IMG/VR virus record: IMGVR_UViG_3300037054_000363
Coordinates: 1 to 46,557 of that record
Source of the DNA: a virus
Direction: 5' to 3' (one strand)
DNA: 46,557 bases
A model generated the notes under the pieces. The model was not told the DNA's origin and did not search any database. It saw only the letters and a program-made list of their open reading frames with translations. How positions within the stretch are numbered: the first letter of the stretch is position 1; each line of letters opens with the position of its first letter. Made by a program: the position numbers and the translations under genes. Positions 1,377 through 18,712 of the stretch are shown here, piece after piece.

Positions 1377-1421
1377 CGACTTTCAACAAGAAATGGATTT
1401 TGAAGAAGTGCTTGAAATTGT

Positions 1422-1466
1422 TGGCTCCCCGGGATGGATTCGAACCACCGACCAACCGGTTAACAG
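1422..1466 (-). repeat. att1, 3' part of tRNA-Asn (left end of E1)
   Basis: A 45-bp sequence identical to 16435-16479 and to the 3' part of the intact tRNA-Asn at 32464-32508. Read on the minus strand it runs from the anticodon loop to CCA. The sequence diverges immediately beyond the anticodon, so this is not a working tRNA gene. It is the attachment repeat left by site-specific integration into the tRNA 3' end, and marks the left edge of E1. Confidence 0.95.
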
Positions 1467-1547
1467 CTAGTCCCCACGGCGTTTCAGAGCATCGCACGCC
1501 GGTTCGTCCAATTGCATAAAATGCCGATTCTATTTGCATTTATGTTT

Positions 1548-1569
1548 GCAAGGCCTATCATTGCCTTGC
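1548..1569. promoter_or_regulatory. inverted repeat in E1 left end
   Basis: GCAAGGC (1548-1554) and GCCTTGC (1563-1569) form a perfect 7-bp stem with an 8-nt loop, in the AT-rich stretch between att1 and the integrase. It could be a protein-binding site in the att region or a small hairpin; nothing in the sequence decides. Confidence 0.4.
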
Positions 1570-1571
1570 TT

Positions 1572-1663
1572 GGGGCCACACTAAAGCGCATCGAAAATGT
1601 GGCCCCGATGTGGCCCCGGAAGCGAGCGAATTCCACCGGTTGGCCATGCCAGAGGGGGCCACA
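1572..1663. promoter_or_regulatory. four TGTGGCCCC boxes at E1 left end, abutting int
   Basis: TGTGGCCCC occurs inverted at 1572-1580, direct at 1598-1606 and 1609-1617, and inverted at 1655-1663, the last ending directly before the integrase ATG. Two further direct copies sit at the opposite end of E1 (16355-16374). Such end-specific boxes are what one expects of arm-type binding sites for the integrase N-terminal domain or for an excisionase. The copy at 1655-1663 covers the ribosome-binding region, so its occupant could repress int. The role is inferred from position. Confidence 0.7.
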
Positions 1664-2950
1664 ATGGCGAAAGTGAACCTTACTGACCGCAAGGTGCAGT
1701 CACTCAAGCCGGCGGCCGCCGGCGGGCGGCGCGAGTTGCTGGACAGCGTCGTCTCGGGCTTCGGCGTTCGCGTCACCGACAGCGGCGCGCGGACCTGGAT
1801 TCTCAAGACGCGGTATCCGGGCAGCACCAACCCGACACGCCGCGCCCTCGGCGAGTACCCGGCCATGACCCTTGAGCAGGCCCGGGCGAAGGCCGGCCAG
1901 TGGCGGACCCTGATCAAGCAGGGCAAGGACCCCCGGGACGAGGAGGAGCGCCAGCAACGCGCGGAAGCCCGGCAGCGGGCCAATACGTTCGCTGTCGTCG
2001 CTGAGGACTTCATCAAGGACAAGCTGGCGACCGAGCGCAAGGGCGCAGAGGTCGAGCGCGACATCCGCCGCGAGTTCCTGCCGGTGTGGGGCACACGGCC
2101 GATTACCGAGATTACCGCCCATGACGTGCGCGATCTCGTCAAGGGGATCAAGGATCGAGGCGCCCCGTATCAGGCTCACAACGTCCTAGGCCATGCGCGC
2201 CGGCTGTTTTCTTGGGCGATTGACCAACACGCCTTCGGGATCGAGGCTTCGCCATGCGATCGGCTGAAACCCAAGGCGATCATTGGCGAGAAAAAGGCCC
2301 GCAAGCGCGTCCTGTCCGACGATGAAATCCGGGCATTCTGGCGCAATGCCGGGCGGCTGCCCTATCCCTACGGCCCGCTTTGCCGGCTGCTGCTGTTGAC
2401 CGGGCAACGCCACAACGAGGTCGCCAAGGCGACGCGCGGCGAGTTTGCCCCCGATGGCGCCCTCTGGGCGATCGGCGCCGAACGGTTCAAGTCGGACGCG
2501 GACCATATGGTGCCGGTGTCGGACGATGCCCGCGCGATCTTCGCGGACCTGCCCCGGTTCAAGTCGGGTGATTTTATCTTTTCCACCACGTTCGGCGTCA
2601 AGCGGACCGTCATATCCGACAAGGTGAAAAATCGGCTTGACGCGCGCATGTTGCGCACCCTCCGGGCAGCGGCACGCAAGCGGGGCGACGATCCGACCCG
2701 GGTCGAGTTGAGGCCATGGATTATCCACGATCTGCGCCGGACCATGCGCACCCATCTTTCGGCGCTTCGCGTCTCGGAGCGCACCGCGGAAATGGTCATC
2801 GGGCACGGCGCCAAGGGGATCGAGCGCGTCTACGATCAACACCGCTACCTTGACGAAATGCGCGAGGCCCTGACCCTCTGGGCCGGCCGGCTGCGATCGA
2901 TCGTTGAGCCGCCGCCAGCGAACGTTGTGCAATTGCACTCGGCGGGGTGA
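1664..2950 (+). CDS. int: tyrosine recombinase / integrase of E1
   Basis: About 428 residues, a P4-type site-specific integrase. The N-terminus (residues 1-90) is a DUF4102-like arm-binding domain beginning MAKVNLTDRKV, followed by a SAM-like core-binding domain and a C-terminal catalytic domain. Catalytic features visible: the first Arg in LLTGQRHNEV, the HxxR box HDLRRT, the IGH box, and the nucleophile Tyr in ERVYDQHRY. I prefer ATG 1664 over the in-frame ATGs at 1610 and 1646 because family members start at MAKxxLT and because an AGAGGGGG ribosome site precedes it. The upstream starts would also place coding sequence over the TGTGGCCCC boxes. It should catalyse integration at tRNA-Asn att1 and, with AlpA, excision. 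It is not closely similar to the E2 integrase although both use the same att core. Confidence 0.95.
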   Translation: MAKVNLTDRKVQSLKPAAAGGRRELLDSVVSGFGVRVTDSGARTWILKTRYPGSTNPTRRALGEYPAMTLEQARAKAGQWRTLIKQGKDPRDEEERQQRAEARQRANTFAVVAEDFIKDKLATERKGAEVERDIRREFLPVWGTRPITEITAHDVRDLVKGIKDRGAPYQAHNVLGHARRLFSWAIDQHAFGIEASPCDRLKPKAIIGEKKARKRVLSDDEIRAFWRNAGRLPYPYGPLCRLLLLTGQRHNEVAKATRGEFAPDGALWAIGAERFKSDADHMVPVSDDARAIFADLPRFKSGDFIFSTTFGVKRTVISDKVKNRLDARMLRTLRAAARKRGDDPTRVELRPWIIHDLRRTMRTHLSALRVSERTAEMVIGHGAKGIERVYDQHRYLDEMREALTLWAGRLRSIVEPPPANVVQLHSAG

Positions 2951-3015
2951 ATTGGCGCGAAATAGCGTTCAGTTGACTTTCGCGTCTGACTGTGGCTTAA
3001 TGCTTCCTACGCCAA

Positions 3016-3052
3016 AGGCTCGGCCGGGGGAAACTCCGTCCCGAGCCTCTTT
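3016..3052 (+). terminator. Rho-independent-like terminator after int (E1)
   Basis: AGGCTCGG (3016-3023) pairs with CCGAGCCT (3041-3048), followed by CTTTAAT. It lies 65 bp after the integrase stop and could end the int transcript. Confidence 0.6.
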
Positions 3053-3063
3053 AATAATTGTCG

Positions 3064-3101
3064 CCCCGCCCTGACCTTGATTGGTCGCGGCGGGGGTTTT
3101 T
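3064..3101 (+). terminator. branched hairpin plus T-run before alpA
   Basis: CCCCGCC (3064-3070) pairs with GGCGGGG (3089-3095). An inner GACC/GGTC stem lies at 3073-3086, and a run of five T follows. It is a strong terminator shape just 24 bp before the next gene, so it may separate int from the following operon or act as an attenuator for it. Confidence 0.65.
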
Positions 3102-3124
3102 CGTTTCAAACGAAGGCACTCGCC

Positions 3125-3325
3125 ATGTCGCATGTACTCCTTCCCTACGCCGACCTTCGGACCAAGGGCATCACGCTTTCGAAGTGCCAAATTTGGCGCC
3201 TGGAGCGCGACAAGCGATTTCCGAAGCGCGTCCAGGTTTCCGACGCCCGCGTGGCGTGGGTCGAATCCGAAATCGACGCCTGGATTGCGCAGCGCATCGC
3301 CGCCCGCGACCTGGTCGCCGCGTAA
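3125..3325 (+). CDS. AlpA-like DNA-binding regulator / excisionase of E1
   Basis: 66 residues starting MSHVLLPYADL. The order of features (a strand, a helix around TLSKCQIWRLER, a KRVQVSDARVAW wing, then EIDAWIAQR) matches the AlpA/MerR-like winged-helix family of phage and satellite regulators. In P4-like elements AlpA switches on integrase and aids excision. ATG 3125 is preferred over an in-frame ATG at 3077, which would place coding sequence over the terminator hairpin. It stands first in a rightward run of particle-type genes, which is unusual, since AlpA genes normally sit with replication genes. Family assignment is fairly secure; the exact target is unknown but may be the TGTGGCCCC boxes. 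Confidence 0.85.
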   Translation: MSHVLLPYADLRTKGITLSKCQIWRLERDKRFPKRVQVSDARVAWVESEIDAWIAQRIAARDLVAA

Positions 3326-3352
3326 TCACCCCAACCAATTGGATCCCGCTAC

Positions 3353-3991
3353 ATGACCACCTCAGTGCTGTCCGGCAGTGCCGCCACTCGCGTCCTGCAG
3401 CCCGGCGAAATTCTCACCGTGACCGCCGACGCGGTATCGAGCGGTCGTGTCGGCCGGCTCGGCAATCTCCCGGGCGACAATGTCCCGGACGTGCCAGCCA
3501 CGTTCACGGCGCTTGCCGCCAGTAAGACACTCACCTTCGGCCCGTTTCCGACCGTCACGCGGCATTTGATCGAAGCATTGAGCGGGCAGGGCGTGGGGTT
3601 CACGCAGGCCGCAGCCGACGCGGCGCGCATGGAAATCGTCGGCGACGCGAGCGACCTCCGATTCATCGCCGCCGCAGGCGCGCCCACGGACTCCACCACC
3701 GGCGCGAACGTGGCGGGGATCGGCTCGCGCTACACGGACACCGCGACCGGCCGGCAATACGCCAACGAAGGCACAAAAGCGTCACCCGTTTGGCGCGCGA
3801 TGCCGACTGTGATCGGCGCCATCGGCGATATGTATTTTATCGTCGGGGCAGGCGCGCCCACGGACGCCACCACGGGCGCGAACGTCGCGGGAATCGGATC
3901 GCAGTACACCGACGTCACGAACGCCAATCTTTACATCAACGGCGGCACGAAGGCGTCACCCGTTTGGAAGCTGGTCACGCGCGCGGCGTAA
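3353..3991 (+). CDS. phage decoration/fibre-like protein with internal repeat
   Basis: 212 residues. The first ~80 residues (leader RVLQPGEILTVTADAVSSG, then TLTFGPFPTVTRHLIEA) resemble the N-terminal beta-rich segment of phage head-decoration and fibre-type proteins. The rest is two copies of a ~45-residue unit containing AGAPTDxTTGANVAGIGS, then YTD, then GTKASPVW, at about residues 105-145 and 163-205. No membrane segment or signal peptide is apparent. It lies between alpA and a further particle-type gene, so it is likely to be a structural or virion-surface protein. No exact family is recognised, and the ribosome site is weak. Confidence 0.65.
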   Translation: MTTSVLSGSAATRVLQPGEILTVTADAVSSGRVGRLGNLPGDNVPDVPATFTALAASKTLTFGPFPTVTRHLIEALSGQGVGFTQAAADAARMEIVGDASDLRFIAAAGAPTDSTTGANVAGIGSRYTDTATGRQYANEGTKASPVWRAMPTVIGAIGDMYFIVGAGAPTDATTGANVAGIGSQYTDVTNANLYINGGTKASPVWKLVTRAA

Positions 3992-4026
3992 CAACGGTCG
4001 CACACCGCGACTTATAAGGAAATACG

Positions 4027-4362
4027 ATGACCGCTCGCAAACCCATAGGGCCGCACTTTTCACAGCGCGACTATTTGCAAAGCCTTCCCCCGGAATACTT
4101 GGGAGATCACGTGGACGTCGCGTTTACCGAATTCATGCACGCGATATCGCGCTGCATTGCTGGCGTTCCCTTTCCGGCCGAAAAGGCGATCGGGTGGGTG
4201 CTGGCCAACATGGCTGCGGCTGGCGGCTACGGGTGGACGACCGATCTGGCTGCAAGAGGCTTGCCGAAAAATTTGGAAAATAGCACCGAGGCTGCAAGGA
4301 CATTTTCCGAAATGATTGTGGCGCACGTCGCCACCTTACCCGCGAATGGAGAATATCCATGA
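4027..4362 (+). CDS. hypothetical protein (E1 particle-gene block)
   Basis: 111 residues beginning MTARKPIGPHFSQRDYLQ, preceded by an AAGGAA ribosome site. No recognised domain, membrane span or cysteine pattern. Its TGA overlaps the start of the next gene (ATGA), indicating translational coupling to the DUF2793-type fibre gene. The coupling suggests a partner or assembly factor for that protein; nothing in the sequence shows a function. Confidence 0.6.
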   Translation: MTARKPIGPHFSQRDYLQSLPPEYLGDHVDVAFTEFMHAISRCIAGVPFPAEKAIGWVLANMAAAGGYGWTTDLAARGLPKNLENSTEAARTFSEMIVAHVATLPANGEYP

Positions 4363-5621
4363 GCGCACATGACGCAATTGCCGCACTGCCGACCGCCGGG
4401 GGCGCCGACCACGCGCTGATCCGCTCGTTGCTCACGAAGCGCGTAACGTACAACTTCGCATCGTCGGAAAACGTAACGACCTGGACGGCACTCGACCCCG
4501 ATACGGGCGCAATTCCGCTTTACGTTCGAATCGGCAACGTGACGTTTCAATACGACTCGACCGACTCGACCACGGCGAACGACGGCATTACGTGCCTCGT
4601 TACCTTGGACGGCAAGCGATACAAGTCGGCGTCGATCACCTACCCGTACGCGGTGCTCAGCGGCTCCGTGACCACGCCGCCCGTCTCGCCGACCATCGGC
4701 GACGCGTACCTCGTGGCGACCGCGTCGACCGGCACATGGTCCGGTAAAGACGGGCGCGTTGCTGTGTTCACAGCATCGGGCTGGCAATTCATCATTTACC
4801 CGATTGGGAAAATGCTTTTCGTTGAGGACACCACGACGTACTGGCATCGCGACGCCAGCGGAACGTGGGCGGTCGGCGTCGGGTCGATCCTGTTCGCCGG
4901 CGCTTCGATCACGGCGTCGAACCTGATCGGCAAACCGGTTCGGTGGATTGCCATCAATCAAACCACCAACGCGCCGCCGGGATCACCGACCGTTGGCGAT
5001 ACCTACATCATCGGCCCGTCGCCGACAGGCGCATGGTCGGGCAACACGACCAAGATTGCTGTTTGCGAGTCGGGCACCACGTTCACGATCTACACGCCGC
5101 GCACCGGCGAACTGGCATACGATATCGCATCGGGTAATGACTATCGGTTTAACGGGTCGGGTTGGGTATCGGGCAACGGCGCCTTTGTCGCCGAGGACTC
5201 GATTTATACTGTCGGTGCAGGAAGCGTAAACCCTGTGTCATCGGGCGGTTACTCCTATTCCGGAACGCCGCCGACAATCGGCGTAACGAACCTTACCGAC
5301 CTCGTGACGCTCACAAAATCGGCGAAACGGACCGGCGCTAAGCAACGGTTTAGATATTCGGCGCAAGTGCTGTCGGCGCAGGCAAACGAACGTATGACCG
5401 TTGGATTATACCGAGACTCCGGGGCGTCTGCGGTCGCCTGGCAGTCGGTATTTGTGGGAGTGCCGCAGGAAGTCAACTATACCGGAACCTTTATCCTAAC
5501 GGCTCCAGATACCTCGTCGCATGTCTACAAAGTGGCAGTTTCGGCCGGGATCGTGGGCGGTGTTGCGACAACGCCGCTCGGGATTTCACAGCGCACTTTC
5601 GAATACCTCGAATCCGCATAA
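4359..5621 (+). CDS. tail-fibre-like protein with two DUF2793-type segments
   Basis: 420 residues, rich in Thr, Ser, Gly and beta-forming residues. Two related segments are seen. One has PPVSPTIGDAYLVATASTGTW and a W-x-G-K-D-G-R-V-A-V-F motif (about residues 108-150). The other has PPGSPTVGDTYIIGPSPTG with the matching TKIAVCESGTTF motif (about 205-250). This SPTxGDxYLV...GxWxG...IAV pattern is typical of DUF2793 domains in phage tail fibre and host-recognition proteins. The C-terminus is a beta-rich region without a known match. In a satellite, a fibre could add to or replace host-recognition parts of a helper particle. The ATG overlaps the upstream stop. Confidence 0.75.
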   Translation: MSAHDAIAALPTAGGADHALIRSLLTKRVTYNFASSENVTTWTALDPDTGAIPLYVRIGNVTFQYDSTDSTTANDGITCLVTLDGKRYKSASITYPYAVLSGSVTTPPVSPTIGDAYLVATASTGTWSGKDGRVAVFTASGWQFIIYPIGKMLFVEDTTTYWHRDASGTWAVGVGSILFAGASITASNLIGKPVRWIAINQTTNAPPGSPTVGDTYIIGPSPTGAWSGNTTKIAVCESGTTFTIYTPRTGELAYDIASGNDYRFNGSGWVSGNGAFVAEDSIYTVGAGSVNPVSSGGYSYSGTPPTIGVTNLTDLVTLTKSAKRTGAKQRFRYSAQVLSAQANERMTVGLYRDSGASAVAWQSVFVGVPQEVNYTGTFILTAPDTSSHVYKVAVSAGIVGGVATTPLGISQRTFEYLESA

Positions 5622-5697
5622 GAGCGAATGCCGCATTAGCGAATGACTGCCCAAGCCCGGCGCGACGCCGGATGCAACATCGAAGGGACTTCGAAAA

Positions 5698-6468
5698 ATG
5701 GCGTTACAATTGGTTGTTGATTCTCTGGACTCCGTTCCTGAGCCGCTGCGCGGCGACTACGCCGCACAAGAGGGTGGCAAATTTCGCCTCAATGTCGACG
5801 GGTTGCAGGACAACGGCGCGCTGCTTAAGGCGCTCCGGACCGAACGCGAGTCCGTCAGTAAACTGAAGGCCGACGCCGCGCCGTGGAAAAAGCTTGGCAA
5901 GACGCCCGACGAAGTCGCCGCGATCCTTGCGGCGGGGGATGCAAGGGAAGCCGAGACGGCTGCGCTCGCCGAAAGAGCCGGGAATGTCGACGCGATCCTA
6001 AAGCAGCACCAAGAAACCTGGACGCAAAAGGAAAAGCTGCTCACTGGCGAATTGAATGCGGCGCGCGCGTCCGAACGCACCGCGATTATCGAAACGACCG
6101 TGACCGCCGCGCTCACCGCAGCGAAGGCCACACCGGAAGGGCTCGACCTGCTTACCGACCGACTCGGCAAGCGACTCCGACTTGAGACGGTAGACGGCAA
6201 ACGGAAGATTCAAATCCTGCAGGCCGATGGCGAGACGCCAATGGCTGGAAAGGGGCCGGGCGGAGTGGCAACCCTCAATGACCTCGTGCAAGAGGCCATG
6301 AAAACGTGGCCCTCGCTATTCATTGGGTCGGGCGCCGGTGGCGGCGGGAAGTCGTCACGGGAAAGCAAGTCCGCGCCGAGTCGCACGATCACTCGCGCGG
6401 AATTCGACACGCTGAGCCCGCGCGCACAGGCCGACAAGATGAAGGCCGGAATCAAACTGATCGACTGA
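5698..6468 (+). CDS. phage scaffolding-type protein (gp20-like)
   Basis: 256 residues. The N-terminus (LVVDSLDSVPEPLRGDYAAQ, then GGKFRLNVDGLQDNGALLKAL) is the signature of phage capsid-scaffolding or minor structural gp20-like proteins. A long charged helical and coiled-coil segment (residues 40-150), a TPEGLDLL region and a Gly-rich tail follow, with a final EFDTLSPRAQADKMKAG helix. In phages this gene directly precedes the major capsid gene and its product directs shell assembly. Here the next gene is not a capsid protein and none exists in E1, so the scaffold would have to act on a helper's capsid. It has a GAAGGG ribosome site. Family assignment is good; the hijacking role is inference. 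Confidence 0.75.
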   Translation: MALQLVVDSLDSVPEPLRGDYAAQEGGKFRLNVDGLQDNGALLKALRTERESVSKLKADAAPWKKLGKTPDEVAAILAAGDAREAETAALAERAGNVDAILKQHQETWTQKEKLLTGELNAARASERTAIIETTVTAALTAAKATPEGLDLLTDRLGKRLRLETVDGKRKIQILQADGETPMAGKGPGGVATLNDLVQEAMKTWPSLFIGSGAGGGGKSSRESKSAPSRTITRAEFDTLSPRAQADKMKAGIKLID

Positions 6469-6511
6469 CCGAGAGAGTCGGCCGCGACAGAAACCCACAC
6501 GGAGTCCGAAA

Positions 6512-7333
6512 ATGAGTTTATCAAATAGCCTCAAGAGCCGATGGAAGCCCGAGCACGAAAAGCACGGGATCGTTGCGGCCATGCGACCGCATTTCCATCG
6601 CGCGCTCGATATCCGCGAACAGCTACAGGCCAAGAAAGCCGCGCTCGCCACCGACAACCACTTGTCGGAACATGGGCGCCGCCAAGTGCTCCGCGATTTC
6701 GCCGCCACGGATGCGGCGCGCACCGTTGCGCGAGCGACGCGCGCGCTCTCCAAGGCGCAAGACAAGGTCCGCGAGCAGCGCATGGCGCTGACGCCGGCCG
6801 TGAAGGACAAGGGGAACGTCGCGAACGCGCTTTTGCGCCAGGAGATCAGGGCGAGTCTCCGCGGAAAAACGCCCGGCCAGCTAGCAACGCTGCTGTTCGA
6901 CCCGAGCGCGGATCCGCTCATGATCGAAGCCGCATTCGAAGCGCCGCTGTTCTTGACCGGCTTGACGGCCGAAATGAAGGACCATCTTCTTGAGGCTGTT
7001 GTCGCGCGCACCAAGGGGCCGCAAGTTGAGGCGCTGGCGCAGACTGCCGAGTCACTGGAAACCGTTGCGGCCGCCGTGCGCGTCGCCACGGACACGTTGC
7101 AGGAGGCCGCAGGGTGCGAGACGCCAGCGGCGTTCGAAGCGTGGTTGAGCAAGGCGGCCCCACTGGATCAAGCCGAACTCGCCGCCGAAAAGGTTGCGTA
7201 TGCGAAATTGGAAGCCGACTTGATCGCGCTAAACGCGGGTAATCTGCCACTCGCCGCGCGGATGACGTTGGTCGAATCGCTGCTCGCCACGAACACCGAC
7301 GAGCTGGCCGGGAAGGCGAGGGACGCCGCGTAA
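6512..7333 (+). CDS. helical protein of unknown function, follows scaffold gene
   Basis: 273 residues, nearly all predicted helix, rich in Ala, Leu, Arg and Glu. The basic N-terminal third (SLKSRWKPEHEKHGIVAAM) is followed by heptad-like stretches consistent with coiled coil. No capsid fold motif, membrane span or enzyme motif is seen. It has a GGAG ribosome site and is co-oriented 43 bp after the scaffolding gene, where a phage would carry its major capsid gene. It may be a second assembly factor. No family is recognised. Confidence 0.6.
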   Translation: MSLSNSLKSRWKPEHEKHGIVAAMRPHFHRALDIREQLQAKKAALATDNHLSEHGRRQVLRDFAATDAARTVARATRALSKAQDKVREQRMALTPAVKDKGNVANALLRQEIRASLRGKTPGQLATLLFDPSADPLMIEAAFEAPLFLTGLTAEMKDHLLEAVVARTKGPQVEALAQTAESLETVAAAVRVATDTLQEAAGCETPAAFEAWLSKAAPLDQAELAAEKVAYAKLEADLIALNAGNLPLAARMTLVESLLATNTDELAGKARDAA

Positions 7334-7350
7334 TCAAGCCACAACGGAAA

Positions 7351-7374
7351 GTAGCCGCGGCGAACTGCGGCTAC
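7351..7374. terminator. bidirectional hairpin after particle block
   Basis: GTAGCCGC (7351-7358) and GCGGCTAC (7367-7374) form a perfect 8-bp stem. It lies between the end of the rightward particle block and the convergent leftward genes. The sequence before it (CACAACGGAAAG) recurs before the hairpin at 7624, so the two are related. Confidence 0.6.
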
Positions 7375-7413
7375 ATTGCCGGGTTGACCGGCTTGCCCGT
7401 GACGCGTCGTGGT

Positions 7414-7581
7414 CTACTTGACGCCCTTGGGCTCACCTTCCTCGTGACGTTTCACCATGGCGTCGACCTGGACAGCAACCCGTTCCGTCGCATCCTTCGC
7501 GTCGTCCGCGTCAGACTTGAGCGCCGCGACCGCGCGGCGGTCTGCCTGAATCGCCTTCAATCGAATCGTGTCTTTGCTCAT
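7414..7581 (-). CDS. small helical protein, hypothetical
   Basis: 55 residues beginning MSKDTIRLKAIQADRRAVAA, highly charged and helical, with no known domain. An AGGG ribosome site precedes ATG 7581; a longer in-frame start at 7614 lacks one. It is transcribed against its neighbours, with a second small leftward gene upstream and hairpins on both sides. That arrangement suggests an independently expressed regulatory or moron-type unit. Function unknown. Confidence 0.5.
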   Translation of the reverse strand: MSKDTIRLKAIQADRRAVAALKSDADDAKDATERVAVQVDAMVKRHEEGEPKGVK

Positions 7582-7623
7582 GTGTTTCGCCCTCAGTGGT
7601 ATTGCGTAATCCACAAACGGAAA

Positions 7624-7647
7624 GCAGCCGCGGCTGCCCGCGGCTGC
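7624..7647. terminator. hairpin between two small leftward genes
   Basis: GCAGCCGCGG (7624-7633) and CCGCGGCTGC (7638-7647) form a 10-bp perfect stem with a 4-nt loop. It is preceded by CACAAACGGAAAG, nearly the same lead sequence as at 7351, so this is probably a duplicated terminator cassette. Confidence 0.55.
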
Positions 7648-7668
7648 CCGCCTCCGTCGCCGTGTCCG

Positions 7669-7842
7669 CTATTCGGAGGGGTCCCCGATCGGACGCAGCG
7701 CAGGAACCGCGATTCCATGGTGCTCGGCGAGCGCGAAAATCTGGACGCGCACGCGATGGGCGGCTTCGTGCAAGTTGGTCAGGTCGTCCACGAGCGCCAG
7801 CAATGCGCGCGCGGTTGCTTCGGTTTTCGCCTTGGTAGTCAT
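7669..7842 (-). CDS. small helical protein, hypothetical
   Basis: 57 residues starting MTTKAKTEATARALLALVDD, amphipathic and helical, with no membrane span. ATG 7842 has an AGGGG ribosome site at good spacing; the longer in-frame start at 7905 does not. Divergent from the replication operon starting at 7944, so the ~100-bp AT-rich gap probably holds promoters for both directions. No family recognised. Confidence 0.5.
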   Translation of the reverse strand: MTTKAKTEATARALLALVDDLTNLHEAAHRVRVQIFALAEHHGIAVPALRPIGDPSE

Positions 7843-7905
7843 CGGACCCCTCCGTGTGCTTGTGCTCAACAAAACCACGCTCGCACGGCCTGGCGAGTGT
7901 GTCAA

Positions 7906-7918
7906 CTAAGTATTTGAT
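7906..7918. promoter_or_regulatory. CTAAGTATTTGAT motif upstream of replication operon
   Basis: This 13-bp motif in an AT-rich divergent gap recurs exactly at 16416-16428, just inside the right end of E1. Here it lies 26 bp before ATG 7944 and could be part of a promoter or operator. Role uncertain. Confidence 0.3.
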
Positions 7919-7943
7919 ATTATTGATAAAACGGACAATCACC

Positions 7944-8102
7944 ATGATTGCAGACTGTCAACGCGACACAACCGATCAGCTCCCGTCGCCGCGACCGCGG
8001 CGCCTCGTGCTCGATCCCGGGGGCGGCATTTCGGATTGCTACAGCCGAATCCGCTTCGTGCTCGACGACCCGCGGCCGCCGGACAAAAAGATGCGCCGCT
8101 AA
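7944..8102 (+). CDS. small hypothetical protein, first gene of E1 replication operon
   Basis: 52 residues from MIADCQRDTTDQ to a basic PDKKMRR tail. Pro- and Arg-rich with no recognised domain. It follows the AT-rich divergent promoter gap and precedes the exported-type protein at 8126. Supported by position and a clean start only. Confidence 0.4.
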   Translation: MIADCQRDTTDQLPSPRPRRLVLDPGGGISDCYSRIRFVLDDPRPPDKKMRR

Positions 8103-8125
8103 TAACTGACGAGGAAATTGCAGCG

Positions 8126-8677
8126 TTGTTTTATGAAGTGATTGAAAGCTTTAATCCGGAACGTATTGACACCTGCGCCTTACTGAGTGCACCGTTTCCA
8201 TCCCTCAACCGGAGGCGGTTCCTCGTGCGTGCAATCGTCGCCGCCCTTGCTGTGTTCGCCGCCGCCAGTGCGCCTCTCAATGACGCCCTTGCGGCATGGA
8301 CCGTTACGCCCTTCGTGGATCCCATGACGGACCGGCACCATGCGGTCGCGACCGTATCCAGTCCCGAGGGCGTTCTGCTGCGCGTCCGGTGCCTCAATGG
8401 GCGCCCGTTCCCTGATATCGTCTTTCCGGGTGTGATCGGATTCGGCGAGATTGGTATCACCCACCGCATTGACTCGGCCGCGCCAGTGCCGCGCATTGCT
8501 CCCACCGGTACGGATGGCCGTAGCCTCTACCTGCTGGAAAGCGTTCCGGCGCTGTCGCGCGCGAAGCGGCTGCGCGTCACCGTGTTTCCGATCGGTGCCG
8601 ACTCCGTTTTCCTCGATTTTGATTTGACCGGGGCCGGGGAGGCGATTAGCGCCGTGCGAGCGGGGTGCGGTCGTTAG
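8126..8677 (+). CDS. putative exported or membrane-anchored protein
   Basis: The frame is open from 8036, but no ATG fits. A TTG at 8126 with GAGGAA nine bases upstream is the best start, giving about 183 residues. Residues 30-60 look like a signal sequence or membrane anchor: NRRR followed by a long hydrophobic FLVRAIVAALAVFAAASAP stretch and an ALA cleavage-like site. The remainder is a beta-rich domain without known motifs. The double Arg could make it a Tat substrate. Function unknown; possibly a host-surface or superinfection modifier. Confidence 0.5.
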   Translation: MFYEVIESFNPERIDTCALLSAPFPSLNRRRFLVRAIVAALAVFAAASAPLNDALAAWTVTPFVDPMTDRHHAVATVSSPEGVLLRVRCLNGRPFPDIVFPGVIGFGEIGITHRIDSAAPVPRIAPTGTDGRSLYLLESVPALSRAKRLRVTVFPIGADSVFLDFDLTGAGEAISAVRAGCGR

Positions 8678-8711
8678 GCTTTCGGTGCGTGCCCGATAAG
8701 AACGAGGGGCG

Positions 8712-8769
8712 TTGAAATACTTTCAAATCCCCGAGACCAGGTGTAGCAGTCTAAACAATTGATATTGTT
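8712..8769. promoter_or_regulatory. two perfect dyads and promoter-like AT-rich region
   Basis: TTGAAA-TAC-TTTCAA at 8712-8726 and AACAAT-TGAT-ATTGTT at 8754-8769 are perfect palindromes in the AT-rich gap 8678-8839. A TTGAGATATACT stretch follows at about 8820, just before ATG 8840. This looks like an operator and promoter region controlling the downstream replication genes. Confidence 0.55.
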
Positions 8770-8839
8770 AATAGAATCTGCCATGCAAAAGACAATTTGG
8801 TATTAGGGGAATTTACTCTTTTGAGATATACTGCCAGAT

Positions 8840-9433
8840 ATGCACAGCACCGACCTCGCCAATTTTTTGAGCGCCGCCCTGGAAATCCCCACCGGCACCG
8901 TCTTGGACCGCGCGAAAACTTTGCGCGCGTCCGATCTTTTGACCTGCGGAAAACAGGGGCGGTTTGCTCGGGCAAATCTAACCAGCGCCGACGCCGTCAA
9001 CTCGCTGATCGCGAACACGATCGACCGCCAGCGCGGCGAAAGTGTCGCCGACGCGGTGCAGCGCGTGCGCGCGCTACGCCCGGACTCGCCGCCCCTTGAG
9101 CTGCCGCAGGGACTCACGCGCGGCCTTTCGTTTTTCCACGCCGACAATGCGGGCGCCGCGCTGGAATCATTAATCGACGACATGCGGTCAGGCCGTCTCG
9201 CGGAGTGGGCCGCCGGCGAGCCCTACACGCTCGCCGTCACGTTCGACGCCCGCGGCGCCAGCGTGTTCGCATCGCTGGATTTGCCGAAGCGCTACGAACT
9301 GGATTTTCGGAACGCCATTTGCGGGTTCGCGCAACCGGGCTTTGCCGAGCGCGTGCGCCAGGTGGAGCGCAACATCACGGTCGGCGGCGACGTGTTCGAG
9401 AGACTCGCCGACGCGCTTGGTCCGCCTGACTGA
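8840..9433 (+). CDS. hypothetical protein upstream of vapE-like gene
   Basis: 197 residues. The N-terminus (SAALEIPTGTVLDRAKTL) could be a helix-turn-helix, and the C-terminal half is a mixed alpha/beta region (YTLAVTFDARGASVFASLD). No recognised family, no membrane span. It opens the transcription unit leading to the VapE-type ATPase, behind a dyad-rich control region, so a regulatory or replication-accessory role is plausible but unproven. Confidence 0.55.
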   Translation: MHSTDLANFLSAALEIPTGTVLDRAKTLRASDLLTCGKQGRFARANLTSADAVNSLIANTIDRQRGESVADAVQRVRALRPDSPPLELPQGLTRGLSFFHADNAGAALESLIDDMRSGRLAEWAAGEPYTLAVTFDARGASVFASLDLPKRYELDFRNAICGFAQPGFAERVRQVERNITVGGDVFERLADALGPPD

Positions 9434-9575
9434 CACAAAAGTTTGCCCCCGAACGCTGGCGCGATCGAGGGCGGGATGGGTGTTTGTGATGCGTCTGGAC
9501 AGCGCGTCTCTTATACTATCCCGCTCACCTTGTCAAGATTGCCACGCGTTCGGGCTCCGCAACAAGGAGTCTGAA

Positions 9576-11795
9576 ATGCACACGATCGACTATGTTCGTT
9601 CAATCACCGCCTTGCGCCGTGAGGTGGAGCGCGGCGAGATACTGCCTGACTTGCAAGCGCGACTCGCCGTTCGGATTTCAGAGGACGCGACCGAGTCTCT
9701 GATTTATTTTTTCGAACAGCAGCCGCCTAACTTTGATCCCGAACGCCTCGGATGGGATTTGCGGCGGCTTTTTCCGGAAGATGGATTCGACCTGTTCGCC
9801 TTGGCTGTCGCCGTGTTCGGCAATCCGCGCGACTCCGCGCTGCGGAATCGCGACGGCACGGCGCAGACGTACCTGGAGAGTGCGTGGGCGTCGTTCGATC
9901 GGCAGCGCGACACCGCCGACCGTCTCATGATTGACGAAATGGACGACGCGCGCGCGAGCGAATGGCCCGCGCCGCCCGAGATTGCCGCCGCAATCGAGGG
10001 TCTCACCGACCTTGCCGACCGCGCGCGCGCCGATCGCGACGCTGCCGCCGAACGTGCGTGGCAAATCGCGGCGGCCGCGGACTACGCGGCGGATATCGCC
10101 GCCGAACAGCAGAAAGCAAATCAAGTGAGCCAATTGCCCGCCGGAACGCCCGGCCCGGGCGGCATGCCGCTGCTTTCGGGACAAGCCGTCATCGTGGATC
10201 TTGGTGCGCCAATTCTTGAGGGTTTCAACGCCGGCCGTGCATCGATGCCATGCCCCGACGCACCGGCGCTACCCGACGTCATGGCGCCGCATCCGCTCTA
10301 CACCGCGGCCAATCTGGCGATTGGTCACTTGGTCGCCATGGCACAGTCGCCCGTCGCGTTCCGGGCGTCCACGGTCGCCGACGTGCTCGGTGTGCTCGCG
10401 GCGGTCCACGCCGACACGCTCGCGGCCGCTGTCGCGCGATTGCGCGGACTCGGCGTGGTGCTGCCCGAAGGAAAGCTAAGCATCGCCGCGAAGCGATTCG
10501 AAACCGCAGTCGCGCGCGAACTTCGCCAAGTGCGCGGCTACGTCAACCGGATCGACGGGACGCCCGAGCCGATGGACGCGCAGAATCTCGCGGTGTTCCT
10601 GCGGCTTGTCGGCGTCGAGACGCGCCATAACGCTTGGAAGCAACGCGCCGAGTTGCGATGGTCTGAGGGCGAATGGACACCTGTCACAGATGCAGAATTG
10701 AATCACCTACGCGCCATGGCGAGCGGCGAGGAGCATCGATTCCGGCCATCAAAAGAATGGTTTCGCGACATGCTCATGGACAACGCGCGGCAACATGGGT
10801 TCGATCCCGTGATCGACCGAATCGACTCGTGCCAAGCCAAATGGGATGGCGTGCCACGCATAGCAACGTGGTTGTCGCGCGTGTGCGGCGTGCCGTGCGA
10901 TCTGTATCACCAAGCGGTCGGAAAAAATCTTGTGGGTGGAATCGTCCGTCGCGCCCGGCACCCCGGGTCCAAGCATGACGAGACAGTGATTCTCATCGGT
11001 CCGCAGGGCTGCGGAAAATCGACGCTCTGTCGTATCCTCGCCTTGAACGACGAATGGTTTTCGGACTCTGTGACGTTCGACGGCACGCCGCAAAACACCG
11101 TGCCGATGCTGTTCGGCCGACTCGTGGTCGAACTCGGCGAGCTTGCCGCAATGCAGCGGCGGGAAATCGAATTTGTTAAGCGATTCCTCGTGGCGCAAAG
11201 CGACTCCGTGACATTGAAGTATCAGGCGTTCACGGACGATTTTGCGCGGCGCTGCGTATTTATCGGGTCGACCAACGCGGGCAACCCTTTGAACGACGTC
11301 ACTGGCAATCGTCGATTCCTGCCCGTCAATATCGCGGCCGGCTTCGAACTGGACCTCGTGTGGCTTCGCGAGAACGTCGACCAGATCGTCGGCGAGGCCG
11401 CGCACCTGGAGGCGGCCGGCGCCACGTTCGACATCCCGCGTGAGGTGTGGGGCGACGCCGCCGAGCACCAGGAGGCCGCGCGATCGGAGTCGCCTCTTGA
11501 GGTGCAATTGGCCGCATGGCTGGACACGAAGCCGGCCGACATATTCATTACCGCGGCTGACCTGCAGCACGGGTTGACGCTGGCGAAACTCAATCCCAAC
11601 GACAAGACGCTGCCCGCGCTCATGCGGCGATTCGGATTCGAGCGCCACAAGGTTCGGGTGCGCGATTTGGGCCAAGCCCGGGTGTGGGTGCGCTCGACGA
11701 CGGCCGCCTATCATCCCGAATGCGCACGCGCCGCACCGTACCAATCGCTACCGGGTCGGCCGGTCGAAATGCGACTCCAATCAATTCGTATTTGA
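9576..11795 (+). CDS. VapE-type replication ATPase (virulence-associated E family)
   Basis: 739 residues from ATG 9576, with a strong AAGGAG site; a longer frame upstream is not expected to be translated. The N-terminal half is helical and acidic with no clear primase motif. The VapE domain spans about residues 420-600: KWDGVPRIATWL, Walker A GPQGCGKST starting at Gly475, a Walker B-like VVELGEL, and the GNRRFLPVNI sensor segment. VapE proteins are superfamily-3-like helicase ATPases that serve as replication proteins in satellites and related islands. The gene is followed directly by an inverted iteron array and then the terminase genes, so it probably drives replication of excised E1. Domain call strong; substrate inferred. 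Confidence 0.9.
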   Translation: MHTIDYVRSITALRREVERGEILPDLQARLAVRISEDATESLIYFFEQQPPNFDPERLGWDLRRLFPEDGFDLFALAVAVFGNPRDSALRNRDGTAQTYLESAWASFDRQRDTADRLMIDEMDDARASEWPAPPEIAAAIEGLTDLADRARADRDAAAERAWQIAAAADYAADIAAEQQKANQVSQLPAGTPGPGGMPLLSGQAVIVDLGAPILEGFNAGRASMPCPDAPALPDVMAPHPLYTAANLAIGHLVAMAQSPVAFRASTVADVLGVLAAVHADTLAAAVARLRGLGVVLPEGKLSIAAKRFETAVARELRQVRGYVNRIDGTPEPMDAQNLAVFLRLVGVETRHNAWKQRAELRWSEGEWTPVTDAELNHLRAMASGEEHRFRPSKEWFRDMLMDNARQHGFDPVIDRIDSCQAKWDGVPRIATWLSRVCGVPCDLYHQAVGKNLVGGIVRRARHPGSKHDETVILIGPQGCGKSTLCRILALNDEWFSDSVTFDGTPQNTVPMLFGRLVVELGELAAMQRREIEFVKRFLVAQSDSVTLKYQAFTDDFARRCVFIGSTNAGNPLNDVTGNRRFLPVNIAAGFELDLVWLRENVDQIVGEAAHLEAAGATFDIPREVWGDAAEHQEAARSESPLEVQLAAWLDTKPADIFITAADLQHGLTLAKLNPNDKTLPALMRRFGFERHKVRVRDLGQARVWVRSTTAAYHPECARAAPYQSLPGRPVEMRLQSIRI

Positions 11796-11857
11796 AGTGT
11801 CCCGCGCGTACCGCAGCGGTCCCGCTTTTATCGTTGTGAATCAACATTGTTCCACTT

Positions 11858-11968
11858 GGGACACCTGGGACACCTGAATTAAAGAAAGACATAGAGAGTG
11901 AAACATAAAAAAAATATCGGGAACGGAAACATAGGAAAGTAGGTGTCCCACGCTGTCCCAGGTGTCCC
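11858..11968. repeat. inverted iteron array, GGGACA every 9-10 bp (E1)
   Basis: GGGACA at 11858 and 11867 faces TGTCCC at 11944, 11954 and 11963, across an AT-rich centre with a run of eight A (about 11900-11918). Tandem 9-bp iterons around an AT-rich core are typical of replication origins, and the array directly follows the replication ATPase gene. It also precedes the small terminase gene, so a packaging site is the alternative. Confidence 0.75.
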
Positions 11969-11975
11969 AACGCCC

Positions 11976-12183
11976 TTGGAAATTGTCGACAGCCGTCATC
12001 AAACCGCGCCGGTTTTCGATCCCTGTTGCGACCGCCTTTTGCTGCACAACTGGTCTAGTACCGGTTGGTCTCAAGCTAGAAATCCCGTATTTTATGGGAT
12101 AAATTGACTCTGACCGCTTAATCCTGTACTGTGGGCCACATACGGGCCACAAGTGGCGCAATTCGCGCCGATAAATTGCGAGA
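11976..12183 (+). other. non-coding leader of terminase operon
   Basis: No convincing gene. It contains several small dyads, among them TCCCGTATTTTATGGGA (about 12087-12103), GGCGCAATTCGCGCC (about 12153-12167), and two GGGCCACA copies about 16 bp apart near 12131-12155. Likely promoter, operator or packaging sequence for the TTG-initiated terminase operon. Confidence 0.4.
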
Positions 12184-12843
12184 TTGGAACTGGCGAAACG
12201 CGGACCTAACTGCACAGTCTGCCAACACGAAAAGCTGTCGCTGATCGACGTAGGGCTCGTGCACAAGGTTCCGATGCAGGCGCTCGCGGACCGCTTCGAC
12301 GTCAGCAAGGATGCCATCTGCCGGCACGCCACCAACCACCTAAGCCCCGTCCAGCGCGCGGCCATCCTCGCGGCGCAGAAACCGACCGCAATCGACCTGG
12401 ACGCACTCCGCGCGTCGGAAAGCGAAGGGTTGCTTGCGCAGCTTGTGACGCAACGCGCGCGGCTGCAAGGCCACGCCGAACTGGCGGCATCGCTCGGCGA
12501 CGTGCGCGGCGCCGTGAGTGCCGAAGGTGCGATCACCAGCAACCTAGCCCTGGTCGGCCGACTGCTCGGGCAGTTGGTGCAAGTCCATGACGTGCGACAC
12601 ACCTCAATCCTGATATCGGCCGACTACATCCGCCTACGTTCGGCGATCGTCGCGGCCCTTCGGCCATTCCCCGAGGCAGCGCGAGCCGTGGGCGCGGCCT
12701 TGCACGCGCTGGAGGCCGACGCCGCCCGGGACATCACCGCCGCGGCGGGCAGGGCCGCCAAGTCGGCGCCGGCGCTGATCGAGCACGAGGCAACCGCGCC
12801 CGTACCGGCGCGCGTCCGACCTTTGCCGCCGCCCCCGTGCTGA
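12184..12843 (+). CDS. small terminase-like HTH protein (E1)
   Basis: 219 residues from a TTG start (MELAKRGPNCTVCQHEK). An N-terminal CxxC precedes a helix-turn-helix-like segment, ALADRFDVSKDAICRHATN, and a long helical oligomerisation-type region and Pro-rich tail follow. The fold and its place immediately before the large terminase ATPase gene (7-bp overlap) fit a small terminase, which binds the packaging site and recruits the motor. The assignment rests on context and HTH layout, not on a sharp family signature. Confidence 0.65.
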   Translation: MELAKRGPNCTVCQHEKLSLIDVGLVHKVPMQALADRFDVSKDAICRHATNHLSPVQRAAILAAQKPTAIDLDALRASESEGLLAQLVTQRARLQGHAELAASLGDVRGAVSAEGAITSNLALVGRLLGQLVQVHDVRHTSILISADYIRLRSAIVAALRPFPEAARAVGAALHALEADAARDITAAAGRAAKSAPALIEHEATAPVPARVRPLPPPPC

Positions 12844-13592
12844 TCGGGCGCGACCTTGGCCGTATGCTTGACCCGGTGCTGTTCGCATCCGACTGCGGGA
12901 TAAAGCCCGACCCGTGGCAGGCGGGCCTACTGCGAGCCATGCCGCGGCGCGCGCTCCTCTTGTGCAGCCGGCAGTCCGGCAAGACGACCACAACCGCGCT
13001 CATGGCCCTGCATCGCGCGGCCTACGAATCGTCCGCCCTGGTCGTGGTCGTGTCGCCATCGCAGCGGCAGTCGGCCGAAATGCTGCGCACGATAAAAGGA
13101 CTCCACGGCCGGCTCGACGGCGCGCCCGCGCTCGATTCGGAATCGGTGCTCAAGGTCGAACTTGCCAACGGCTCGCGCATCCTGGCGCTGCCCGGCACCG
13201 AGCGCACCGTGCGCGGCTTCGCGGGGGCGAGCCTGGTCATCGTGGACGAGGCCGCGCGCGTCGAGGATGAATTACTTGCCGCGGTGCGGCCGATGCTCGC
13301 CACGAATGCCGCCGGCAGCCTCATCGCGTTGAGCACTCCCGCCGGAAAGCGCGGTTGGTTTTATGAGGCGTGGCACGGTCCCGCCTCCGATGGCTACTAC
13401 CGCGTGCGCGTGTCGGCGCAAGAATGTCCGCGGATATCGCAGGCGTTTCTAGACGAGGAATTGCGCGAGTTGGGGCCAACGCGATTTAGCGAGGAATACG
13501 GGCTCGCGTTCGTGGATCCCGAAGAGTCGGCGTTTCCTACCACGATCATTGATTCGGCCTTTTCAAACGAGGTACTGCCGCTATGGGGATGA
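12837..13592 (+). CDS. large terminase, ATPase half
   Basis: 251 residues from GTG 12837, overlapping the upstream gene by 7 bp. Motor motifs are visible: adenine-binding DPWQAGLLRA, Walker A CSRQSGKT, Walker B LVIVDEAAR, and the coupling motif LSTPAG. The protein stops at VLPLWG, exactly where an intact large terminase would run on into its RNase H-like nuclease. That nuclease is encoded by the next gene in the -1 frame, with a 10-bp overlap. It should power DNA translocation into a procapsid, and must associate with its nuclease half or be fused to it by frameshifting. Confidence 0.85.
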   Translation: MLIGRDLGRMLDPVLFASDCGIKPDPWQAGLLRAMPRRALLLCSRQSGKTTTTALMALHRAAYESSALVVVVSPSQRQSAEMLRTIKGLHGRLDGAPALDSESVLKVELANGSRILALPGTERTVRGFAGASLVIVDEAARVEDELLAAVRPMLATNAAGSLIALSTPAGKRGWFYEAWHGPASDGYYRVRVSAQECPRISQAFLDEELRELGPTRFSEEYGLAFVDPEESAFPTTIIDSAFSNEVLPLWG

Positions 13593-14272
13593 TAACCCGA
13601 CCCGCCGACTGGCGGCATATCCCGGCCCGCGCGGTCAATCGCTGGATCGTCGGCGCGGACCTCGGGCAGAGTACGGACCCCACTGCTATTTGCGTGATGC
13701 ATCACCGCGTCGTGCCGCTCGAAAAGTGGACGCCCAACGCGAAAGCCGAAATGTGGAGGCAAGACCGCGTCGAGCATTTCGACGTTCGGCATTTGGAACG
13801 ATTGCCGCTCGGCTTGTCCTACCCGGTACAGGTCGCGCGCGTCGCCGCGCTCTTGCAGCGTCCGCCGCTCAATGCGTGCAAACCGACTTTGATCGTTGAC
13901 GAGACGGGAGTCGGTCGTGCGGTTGCCGATATTTTTGACACCGCAGGACTCCGACCGCAGCGCGTGACGATCACGGCGGGCCTCGAAACGACGCAGCACG
14001 GCGGCAATTCATGGCACGTTGCCAAGACCGTCTTAATTTCGGGGCTCGATGCGCGTCTCCACACCGGCGAATTGAAAATCGCCGCCGCACTGTCTGACGC
14101 TGGCGCACTACTGGACGAGTTGAAAGATTTTCAGCGCAAGGTGTCGGACGCGGGGAGGGCAACATATGCCGCCCGGACCGGCGCGCACGATGACTTGGTA
14201 CTTTCCATTGCGATCGCGCTATGGTGGGCGACGTCGGGGCCGACCAGCAGCGTAGGGGAGCTACGACTATAA
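13583..14272 (+). CDS. large terminase, nuclease half
   Basis: 229 residues from ATG 13583, which lies inside the end of the ATPase gene (TATGGGGATGA). RNase H-like nuclease motifs: the first acidic residue in VGADLGQSTDPTAICV, a second in LIVDETGVGR, and the last in ARTGAHDDLVLSIAIA, where DD closes the metal site. All three acidic positions are kept, so the nuclease looks active. A GGGG run at the junction would allow a -1 shift giving a fused protein; otherwise this is stop-start reinitiation. A real split or a single-base assembly error cannot be separated from the sequence alone. Confidence 0.85.
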   Translation: MGMITRPADWRHIPARAVNRWIVGADLGQSTDPTAICVMHHRVVPLEKWTPNAKAEMWRQDRVEHFDVRHLERLPLGLSYPVQVARVAALLQRPPLNACKPTLIVDETGVGRAVADIFDTAGLRPQRVTITAGLETTQHGGNSWHVAKTVLISGLDARLHTGELKIAAALSDAGALLDELKDFQRKVSDAGRATYAARTGAHDDLVLSIAIALWWATSGPTSSVGELRL

Positions 14273-14302
14273 TTTAGTACCCGAATCAGGCAGGAGAGCG
14301 CC

Positions 14303-14764
14303 ATGTGGCAAATTGCAGTGGATTGGGCTAGAATTGCTCCAGGGATCACGCCGTTTGTTGCCCTATTGGCTGTAATTTTCGCCTGGAGACAGCTTCGAAA
14401 CAATCGCGTAAATCAGTGCGAGACTACTGCCAAAGGAATATTCCGTGAATACCTTAAGCTTGCATTTGAAAAACCGGAATTCGCCGAACCAGACTACAAC
14501 GATTTGATGAGCGACTCAAAAACGCGGGCGAAATATGAACTGTTTATCGCATATTTGCTTTGGAGTTGTGAGGAGATTTTGCGATACGCAAAAAACGACG
14601 CCATATGGAGAGCGAATCTTCAAGATAACGTGAACCCGCATTATGAATATTTTCGAGAACATCCTGAGTTTATAAGGAATGCGAACGGCAGTTTGATGTA
14701 TGAACCTGAGATTGAGGTTCTCGTCAGTGCTGCAATAGAGTTGGGAGCTAAAACGACGACTTGA
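14303..14764 (+). CDS. membrane-anchored hypothetical protein (AT-richer cargo)
   Basis: 153 residues. One N-terminal membrane segment lies at about residues 10-30 (ITPFVALLAVIFAW), followed by a cytosolic helical domain with many aromatic and acidic residues. The base composition is clearly more AT-rich than the flanking terminase genes, which suggests separate acquisition. It lies just after the terminase operon, where satellites and phages often carry defence or exclusion genes. No family recognised; role inferred from position only. Confidence 0.55.
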   Translation: MWQIAVDWARIAPGITPFVALLAVIFAWRQLRNNRVNQCETTAKGIFREYLKLAFEKPEFAEPDYNDLMSDSKTRAKYELFIAYLLWSCEEILRYAKNDAIWRANLQDNVNPHYEYFREHPEFIRNANGSLMYEPEIEVLVSAAIELGAKTTT

Positions 14765-14792
14765 CGTCACGCGCGTATTGATCGGCCTGGAA

Positions 14793-15392
14793 TTATTTTG
14801 CGCTGATTACGATTTCGATCGTATTGGGGGGCTGGACCATGCCCGGAAGGGCAGTAGCGTCGATTCCGTATTGTTTAAGCTTTTCGACAAGCGCGATTGC
14901 TGCCGCGGCGCGTTCGGTTTTTTCGGGAAAAATCACAGGCTTTGACAAATCAACCGCATAAGACACGACAACTCCAGCCGGGAATAGCACTGTAGCAGTA
15001 GCTGTTCCCGGCAATATTGTCATATCCCAGCCGGCCTCTCTAAGAGGGGCTGTTAACACTCGCGCGAACCATTCACTTTCAGGCGTCGATGGAGACGCAA
15101 TAACTGTCCCATGTTGGTTCTTGAACCCCGAAAGCGCAACAGTCAGTTCGCTTTGCTGGGCCTGTGTGATCAAGCGCGGCGCAACTTGCTTCCGAAGCCG
15201 GGCCGTCTCGTTATTTAGCTCGGCAATTTTTACGTCTTTGGCAGTCTCGATCCTTTCTTTGTGCGGCGCTCCAAATTTGAGTGCAGCAAATTCAATCGCC
15301 AATGCCACAACAACGGCAAGAAATGCCCAATGTTCTATTTCGCTCCAGAACCAAGCCCACCACGTAGCTTGGGCTAATTCTACGTCATTCAT
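14793..15392 (-). CDS. membrane-anchored coiled-coil protein (E1 cargo)
   Basis: 199 residues from ATG 15392, which has an AAGGGG site; the open frame extends to 15506 without a better start. One membrane segment (about residues 20-38, AFLAVVVALAIEFAALKF), then a coiled coil (KDVKIAELNNETARLRKQV), then a soluble alpha/beta domain (APLREAGWDMTILPGTATA). This layout is widespread in bacterial membrane proteins of unknown role. It forms a leftward pair with 15436-16323 at the element's right edge, a common place for defence or exclusion cargo. Confidence 0.6.
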   Translation of the reverse strand: MNDVELAQATWWAWFWSEIEHWAFLAVVVALAIEFAALKFGAPHKERIETAKDVKIAELNNETARLRKQVAPRLITQAQQSELTVALSGFKNQHGTVIASPSTPESEWFARVLTAPLREAGWDMTILPGTATATVLFPAGVVVSYAVDLSKPVIFPEKTERAAAAIALVEKLKQYGIDATALPGMVQPPNTIEIVISAK

Positions 15393-15435
15393 AAAAGCCC
15401 CTTGGAATTCGGCGAAGGTCCCGATGAGCCTCACA

Positions 15436-16323: not shown

Positions 16324-16354
16324 GACCGATCGCCCGCATACCAGTTCTGCAAAA

Positions 16355-16374
16355 TGTGGCCCCCAATGTGGCCC
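16355..16374 (+). promoter_or_regulatory. TGTGGCCC box pair at E1 right end
   Basis: TGTGGCCCC at 16355-16363 and TGTGGCCC at 16367-16374, 12 bp apart. They are the same box as at the E1 left end and 61-80 bp from att2. Probable right-arm sites of the E1 integrase or excisionase. They also lie just upstream of the leftward gene starting at 16323. Confidence 0.7.
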
Positions 16375-16434
16375 GGAAGCAAAAATGCACCGAAATGCAG
16401 AACCGATAAATCAACCTAAGTATTTGATTTAATT

Positions 16435-16479
16435 TGGCTCCCCGGGATGGATTCGAACCACCGACCAACCGGTTAACAG
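16435..16479 (-). repeat. att2, 3' part of tRNA-Asn (E1/E2 junction)
   Basis: Identical over 45 bp to 1422-1466 and 32464-32508. It is the 3' part of tRNA-Asn without its 5' half, shared by the right end of E1 and the left end of E2. It shows that the two elements were inserted one after the other at the same tRNA gene in the same orientation. Confidence 0.95.
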
Positions 16480-16619
16480 TGGTTTCAAGCCGCATTATAC
16501 CGCGCCCCACTGCAACGCGCTGCGATGGCATGCACAAGCTAACCGTTTGATGTTGCGGGCATAGCCCGTGCCAACGGATAGCAGCCCGTTGCACGCCCTT
16601 GCACCCAAGCGCGCGCACT

Positions 16620-16666
16620 GGTACCCACGGGGTACCGCAGCGACCAAGTTTCTGGGGAGGGGTACC
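16620..16666. promoter_or_regulatory. GGTACC(CC) boxes at E2 left end, abutting int
   Basis: GGTACCC (16620-16626), GGGGTACC (16629-16636) and GGGGTACC (16659-16666), the last directly before the integrase ATG and covering its ribosome site. Matching direct copies lie at the E2 right end (32398-32416). The arrangement parallels the TGTGGCCCC boxes of E1. Probable arm-type sites and int autorepression site; the function is inferred. Confidence 0.7.
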
Positions 16667-18396: not shown

Positions 18397-18398
18397 GC

Positions 18399-18421
18399 GG
18401 AACGCAGGTTAGCTGCGTTCC
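18399..18421 (+). terminator. hairpin terminator after int operon (E2)
   Basis: GGAACGCAG (18399-18407) pairs perfectly with CTGCGTTCC (18413-18421), a 9-bp stem with a 5-nt loop, overlapping the end of the 17902 gene's transcript. No strong T-run follows (CCCTCTT). Confidence 0.65.
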
Positions 18422-18706: not shown

Positions 18707-18712
18707 TCCATC

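Follow-up and report, generated by a model that had tools for sequence, protein, structure and literature searches.

A candidate phage satellite with a full-length capsid scaffolding gene, a two-gene terminase and no recognized capsid gene

A scaffolding gene that lies in a mobile element without a capsid gene raises the question of whose coat protein it serves, if any. We addressed this question in a 46,557-base virus record, the whole of which is referred to as the window. The first-pass annotation of this DNA had described an element, E1, that encodes a gp20-like scaffolding protein, a decoration-like protein and a DUF2793-type fibre, with no capsid or portal gene and with a helical orphan in the position following the scaffold. 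The 46-nt 3′ end of a tRNA-Asn gene is found in three identical copies (1421–1466, 16434–16479 and 32463–32508), and the complete tRNA-Asn gene is located on the minus strand at 32464–32538. These three perfect repeats indicate that the window contains two tandem elements, E1 and E2. E1 is a discrete element of 15,013 bp (1421–16433), with its left attachment repeat at 1421–1466 and its right attachment repeat at 16434–16479, the latter being common to E1 and E2 (16434–32462; 16,029 bp). In both elements, the left repeat is closely followed by a tyrosine integrase gene lying within the element. Another element, E3, begins with a third integrase (33904) and is cut by the end of the window.

The following genes of E1 are all on the plus strand. 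The integrase (1610–2950; likely start at the ATG at 1664, with a ribosome-binding site upstream) presents a P4-type arm-binding domain (Pfam PF13356, 2.8e-18; PF22022; PF00589) and precedes an AlpA-type regulator or excisionase (3077–3325; Pfam PF05930, 1.4e-12; phrog_2790, 2.2e-11); both genes are intact. They are followed by a single co-directional run of five genes: the decoration-like gene (3353–3991), a gene for a 111-aa protein without family match in Pfam or PHROGs (4027–4362), whose stop overlaps the start of the fibre-type gene at 4359, the fibre-type gene itself (4359–5621), the scaffolding gene (5698–6468) and the helical orphan (6512–7333). A G+C-rich hairpin with an 8-pair stem and a T-run on the minus side only (7351–7374) closes the run that starts with alpA. 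Further downstream, we identified a phrog_1848 protein (8036–8677; E = 1.1e-9), a family that carries no assigned function, and a VapE-like primase/helicase likely devoted to replication (9342–11795; Pfam PF05272, 1.2e-52; phrog_256, 1e-65). A set of terminase genes then follows, which the first-pass annotation had left out; the rest of its inventory, i.e., scaffold, decoration-like and fibre genes without capsid or portal, stands. All the named genes are open and most are preceded by plausible ribosome sites; the promoter scan yielded signals no more frequent than expected by chance. A low-G+C patch of E1 also contains a gene (14303–14764) that matches the membrane partner in Drt1b, a defence system based on a reverse transcriptase (PADLOC, 6.5e-25), with no reverse transcriptase recognized alongside.

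We further analyzed the scaffolding protein. Its match to phrog_206 (head scaffolding protein) is full-length (E = 3.7e-24; residues 1–244), and it presents 52%, 48% and 46% identity to the scaffolds of the phage contigs L012, L002 and L010, respectively, in agreement with the gp20-like assignment made earlier. The phrog_206 profile alone also matches in 2 of 14 control genomes, and the assignment therefore rests on these alignments and on gene context. The N-terminal motif MALxLxVD is conserved and forms the invariant N-terminus of a seven-sequence alignment. A structural model that draws on seven relatives (pLDDT 73, with a pTM of only 0.39) places a long helix in the centre of the protein, together with a flexible Gly-rich linker and a C-terminal domain predicted with confidence. 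Scaffolds usually bind the coat through their C-terminal domain; by analogy, this domain would represent the coat-binding end of the E1 protein. Compared with viral models in Foldseek, the model gave 19 matches at E ≤ 0.001, some of them to proteins named as scaffolding or GP20 proteins, in agreement with a scaffold-type fold. No significant structural match to the model was found in the PDB, and the best matches of the scaffold profile among PDB sequences were designed helical proteins, together with a few weak unrelated ones. A non-exhaustive contig scan requiring exact short peptides found no such scaffold in bacterial genomes.

The E1 scaffold is 256 aa long, relative to 247–264 aa for the phage scaffolds that it resembles, and its length thus gives no argument for the assembly of a smaller shell; CpmB, for comparison, is a short protein. 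Its C-terminus (...MKAGIKLID) does not contain the RIIK motif of CpmB-type scaffolds. In the tree, the scaffolds of E1 and L012 are sisters (support 0.93) with nearly equal branch lengths (0.416 and 0.412, respectively), which indicates that the E1 scaffold has diverged no faster than the copy of L012 that adjoins its capsid gene.

The gene that follows the scaffold distinguishes E1 from its relatives. In six of them (L002, L010, L011, L012, L013 and L020), the major capsid gene starts 12–187 nt after the scaffold; three of these capsid calls pass the Pfam threshold for P22 coat and the others were made by tblastn. Another capsid-like protein, assigned by inspection, follows the scaffold in L017 and L022. 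Unlike all these relatives with a readable downstream region, the E1 scaffold is followed by 6512–7333 and is not directly upstream of a capsid gene; this position upstream of capsid genes constitutes context rather than homology. We note that the reading frame of the L012 capsid gene (10875–12033) is interrupted near 11440 and continues in a second frame, which represents either a frameshift or a sequencing error. The capsids of L002 and L020 and the portal and MuF proteins of L002 showed no tblastn match anywhere in the window, and searches of E1 with Pfam, PHROGs and tblastn identified no capsid, portal, protease or connector gene, as the first-pass annotation had stated for capsid and portal.

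Could 6512–7333 itself be the capsid gene? We found no match to this protein in Pfam, PHROGs, the PDB, phages, plasmids, viral and genome contigs or five whole records, the contig scans being non-exhaustive since they require exact short peptides. Its single-sequence model is wholly helical with low confidence (pLDDT 58) and has no structural match at E ≤ 0.001. At this low confidence, the model contains none of the strands of an HK97-like fold. These predictions suggest that 6512–7333 is probably not an HK97-type capsid protein. Alternatively, 6512–7333 might encode a capsid protein that is novel or has diverged strongly, from which E1 would build its own shell; the gene lies exactly at the expected capsid position and has no homologue. 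This reading appears most improbable to us, given the low-confidence all-helical prediction without beta strands, unlike the HK97 fold, the lack of structural match and the fact that no portal was found.

Outside E1, the neighbouring E3 contains a capsid gene at 42399–43454, which belongs to a different family (PF05065). A tape measure gene lies close behind it, and this element (33904–46557) also possesses an integrase and an MT-A70-type methyltransferase, with no portal or terminase match within the window. E2 encodes TerS, an HNH protein, a TerL that is not divided and a tape measure, as well as a protein with weak similarity to proteases, and it gave no capsid or portal match. The two elements have in common a zinc-finger-type protein of phrog_20494 (18713–19315 in E2 and 37974–38519 in E3; 45% identity), a sequence similarity that suggests that they are related elements. 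The E1 scaffold might thus work with the PF05065 capsid protein of E3 in a cooperation of tandem elements, a scenario in which capsid and tape measure would come from E3, a terminase and a protease-like protein from E2, and scaffold and terminase from E1. We regard this as very unlikely: no relative of the scaffold was seen beside a PF05065 capsid, the closest scaffolds being paired with P22-type coats, and E3 lies beyond an intact tRNA gene and is cut by the end of the window.

The 14-kb region L004:1–14244 resembles E2 in its plan, with an integrase, a primase, a terminase that is split and a tape measure of 980 aa, and no capsid or portal gene was recognized in it. Searches with the primase and with the integrases of E1 and E2 yielded no sibling of E1. 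The closest integrase found (45%) is encoded on the Bradyrhizobium plasmid pCC829_1 (L023:11983–14298), in the vicinity of a small terminase-family gene and of another gene that carries the annotation DNA polymerase III beta; this region is perhaps another satellite-like element.

No family match was obtained for 3353–3991 in Pfam or PHROGs. The protein presents two-ended similarity to L012:12369–13220 (34% over 73 residues and 60% over the last 30), the product of a gene that lies a short distance downstream of the capsid gene of L012. It also matches part of UOF76937, whose gene is the immediate downstream neighbour of the MW202444 capsid gene. These similarities bear out its description as decoration-like, and a head-fibre-like role is an alternative label. 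Since its relatives sit just after capsid genes, E1 possesses versions of both capsid-flanking genes without the capsid gene. A 155-nt tandem duplication within the gene (3639–3967; 75% identical) has doubled its C-terminal repeat. The product of 4359–5621 matches DUF2793 in two stretches (Pfam, 7.4e-30) and phrog_7049 ‘tail fiber protein’ (3.4e-19), which agrees with the fibre assignment; in annotated phage proteins, DUF2793 is found in tail-fibre or virion structural proteins.

In addition, E1 encodes its own packaging genes, also on the plus strand. A protein similar to terminase small subunits (12184–12843) shows 23–35% identity to the product of the gene preceding TerL in L006, L007 and L008. 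The large subunit is encoded by two overlapping genes (12837–14272): an ATPase half (12837–13592; phrog_7579, 9.9e-55; Pfam PF03237, 6.2e-12) and a nuclease half (13583–14272; phrog_27743, 6.9e-41). In L004–L009, too, each half occupies its own frame, and the split is therefore a conserved feature rather than a product of sequencing error. With the terms that we used, our literature search returned no description of a split large terminase. A terminase large subunit is itself unusual for P4 and ordinary PICIs. Phages of Meiothermus and Thermus encode relatives of the ATPase half. Other capsid families (PF20911 and PF17236) are present in L007 and L008, two of the contigs with a related terminase, and the packaging and scaffold genes of E1 therefore appear to have been drawn from different phages. 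Terminase and scaffold, coming from different lineages, may not fit one portal and one coat.

This mixed origin bears on the main rival explanation, under which E1 is a mosaic prophage remnant whose head and tail module has been lost except for the scaffold, decoration and fibre genes, now idle as a set. The structural gene set is indeed partial, the scaffold and the terminase trace back to distinct phage lineages, and we found a single example of this arrangement, while genes acquired recently could still look intact. However, no gene is disrupted and most have a plausible ribosome site, the attachment repeats are free of mismatches and the branch of the scaffold is no longer than that of its phage sister. 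Moreover, the order decoration–fibre–scaffold, with the terminase more than 5 kb away past the replication gene, is unlike the product of a simple deletion in a late operon. We consider that a remnant is a possible origin of E1, albeit a doubtful one. Because no second element with this scaffold and without a capsid gene was found, E1 could possibly be a remnant of recent formation.

The reading that we favor, with about an even chance of being correct, is that E1 represents an integrated satellite of a phage: its scaffold would act on the coat protein of a helper and its own terminase would package E1 DNA. It relies on the combination of an intact element with perfect repeats, a full-length scaffold, no capsid gene, and its own terminase and VapE. 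Under this model, a helper phage would induce E1, AlpA and the integrase would excise it and the VapE-type primase/helicase would replicate it. The co-directional run 3353–7333 would then yield capsid-assembly accessories: the full-length scaffold would bind the coat of the helper, probably a P22-type coat such as L012-like phages have, and compete with or replace the helper’s scaffold, while the decoration-like and fibre-type proteins would dress the particle. The redirection of a helper capsid and the altered host range envisaged in the first-pass annotation would be further, hypothetical effects of the scaffold and the fibre, as would a smaller shell. Finally, the small subunit and the two-gene terminase would select E1 DNA and package it through the helper portal, on which we assume that the terminase docks.

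Alternatively, E1 could be a satellite whose scaffold and helical protein mainly poison helper assembly, through a dominant-negative scaffold acting in interference or defence, rather than build particles for E1. An imperfectly fitting foreign scaffold could derail assembly, PICI proteins that interfere with tail assembly are documented (PMC11364771) and E1 contains an orphan defence-type gene, the Drt1b-like 14303–14764. We judge this version unlikely, as the terminase, fibre-type and decoration-type genes rather suggest particle production.

Returning to the reading of E1 as a satellite that builds particles from helper coat, we classify the element, with moderate confidence, as a phage satellite of a new variety. 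In the literature that we consulted (PMC10945586), satellite capsid strategies are based either on dedicated scaffold proteins (CpmB, Sid and TcaP) or on whole-head, capsid-forming gene sets. If our reading is true, E1 would be intermediate, in that it combines a genuine phage scaffold of full length and a decoration gene with the lack of a capsid, and it would show how scaffold-based piracy can start by gene capture. More tentatively, and with a probability well short of even, E1 might represent an unrecognized satellite plan between PICIs and capsid-forming PICIs, in which the capsid-flanking genes (full-length internal scaffold and decoration protein) and a two-gene terminase are carried by the satellite and only coat, portal and tail are taken from the helper, E2 and E3 being further members with partial morphogenesis. 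E1 offers a simple co-expression test, in which its scaffold is combined with a P22-type coat protein.

Among phages, the closest counterparts are the head modules of L012, L002 and L010, whose scaffolds (46–52% identical to that of E1) stand ahead of a P22-type capsid gene; L012 also encodes a relative of the decoration-like protein. In E1, the capsid gene is missing from this arrangement. Among satellites, E1 resembles Gram-negative PICIs, P4-like satellites and AH14b-type elements by its size of about 15 kb, its integrase beside AlpA and its primase-type gene (PMC6092414, PMC4936722), and it presents the feature set of Gram-negative PICIs: about 15 kb, integrase, AlpA, primase and a specific attachment site. 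In contrast, its scaffold and fibre-type genes depart from the ‘absence of phage structural genes’ that defines PICIs (PMC6092414), and it encodes TerL, whereas Gram-negative PICIs, P4-like satellites and AH14b-type elements possess neither phage structural genes nor TerL, AH14b having no terminase at all (PMC6092414, PMC4936722). Like E1, cfPICIs are integrated and encode their own small and large terminase subunits and head genes (PMC10690885), although the large subunit of E1 is split and the capsid, protease, portal and connectors encoded by cfPICIs were not found in E1.

Precedents for a satellite-encoded scaffold are the internal CpmB (PMC6893505) and the external Sid and TcaP (PMC10945586); CpmB and Sid are analogues of the E1 scaffold in their proposed function only, and not its homologues. 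P4 Sid and PLE TcaP are satellite proteins that govern the assembly of helper coat (PMC10945586), as we propose for E1, but they are external scaffolds of other families, whereas the E1 scaffold resembles internal ones. No homologues of Sid, Psu and Delta of P4-like satellites were found among the Pfam and PHROGs profile matches of the scanned E1 proteins. SaPI1, with CpmB acting alongside CpmA, is like E1 in encoding an internal scaffold while the satellite itself has no capsid gene, and the coat-binding end of CpmB shares its type with phage scaffolds (PMC6893505). Relative to SaPI1, E1 adds terminase, decoration-like and fibre-type genes, with no CpmA-like gene identified, and its scaffold belongs to another family (phrog_206) and has the full length of a phage scaffold.
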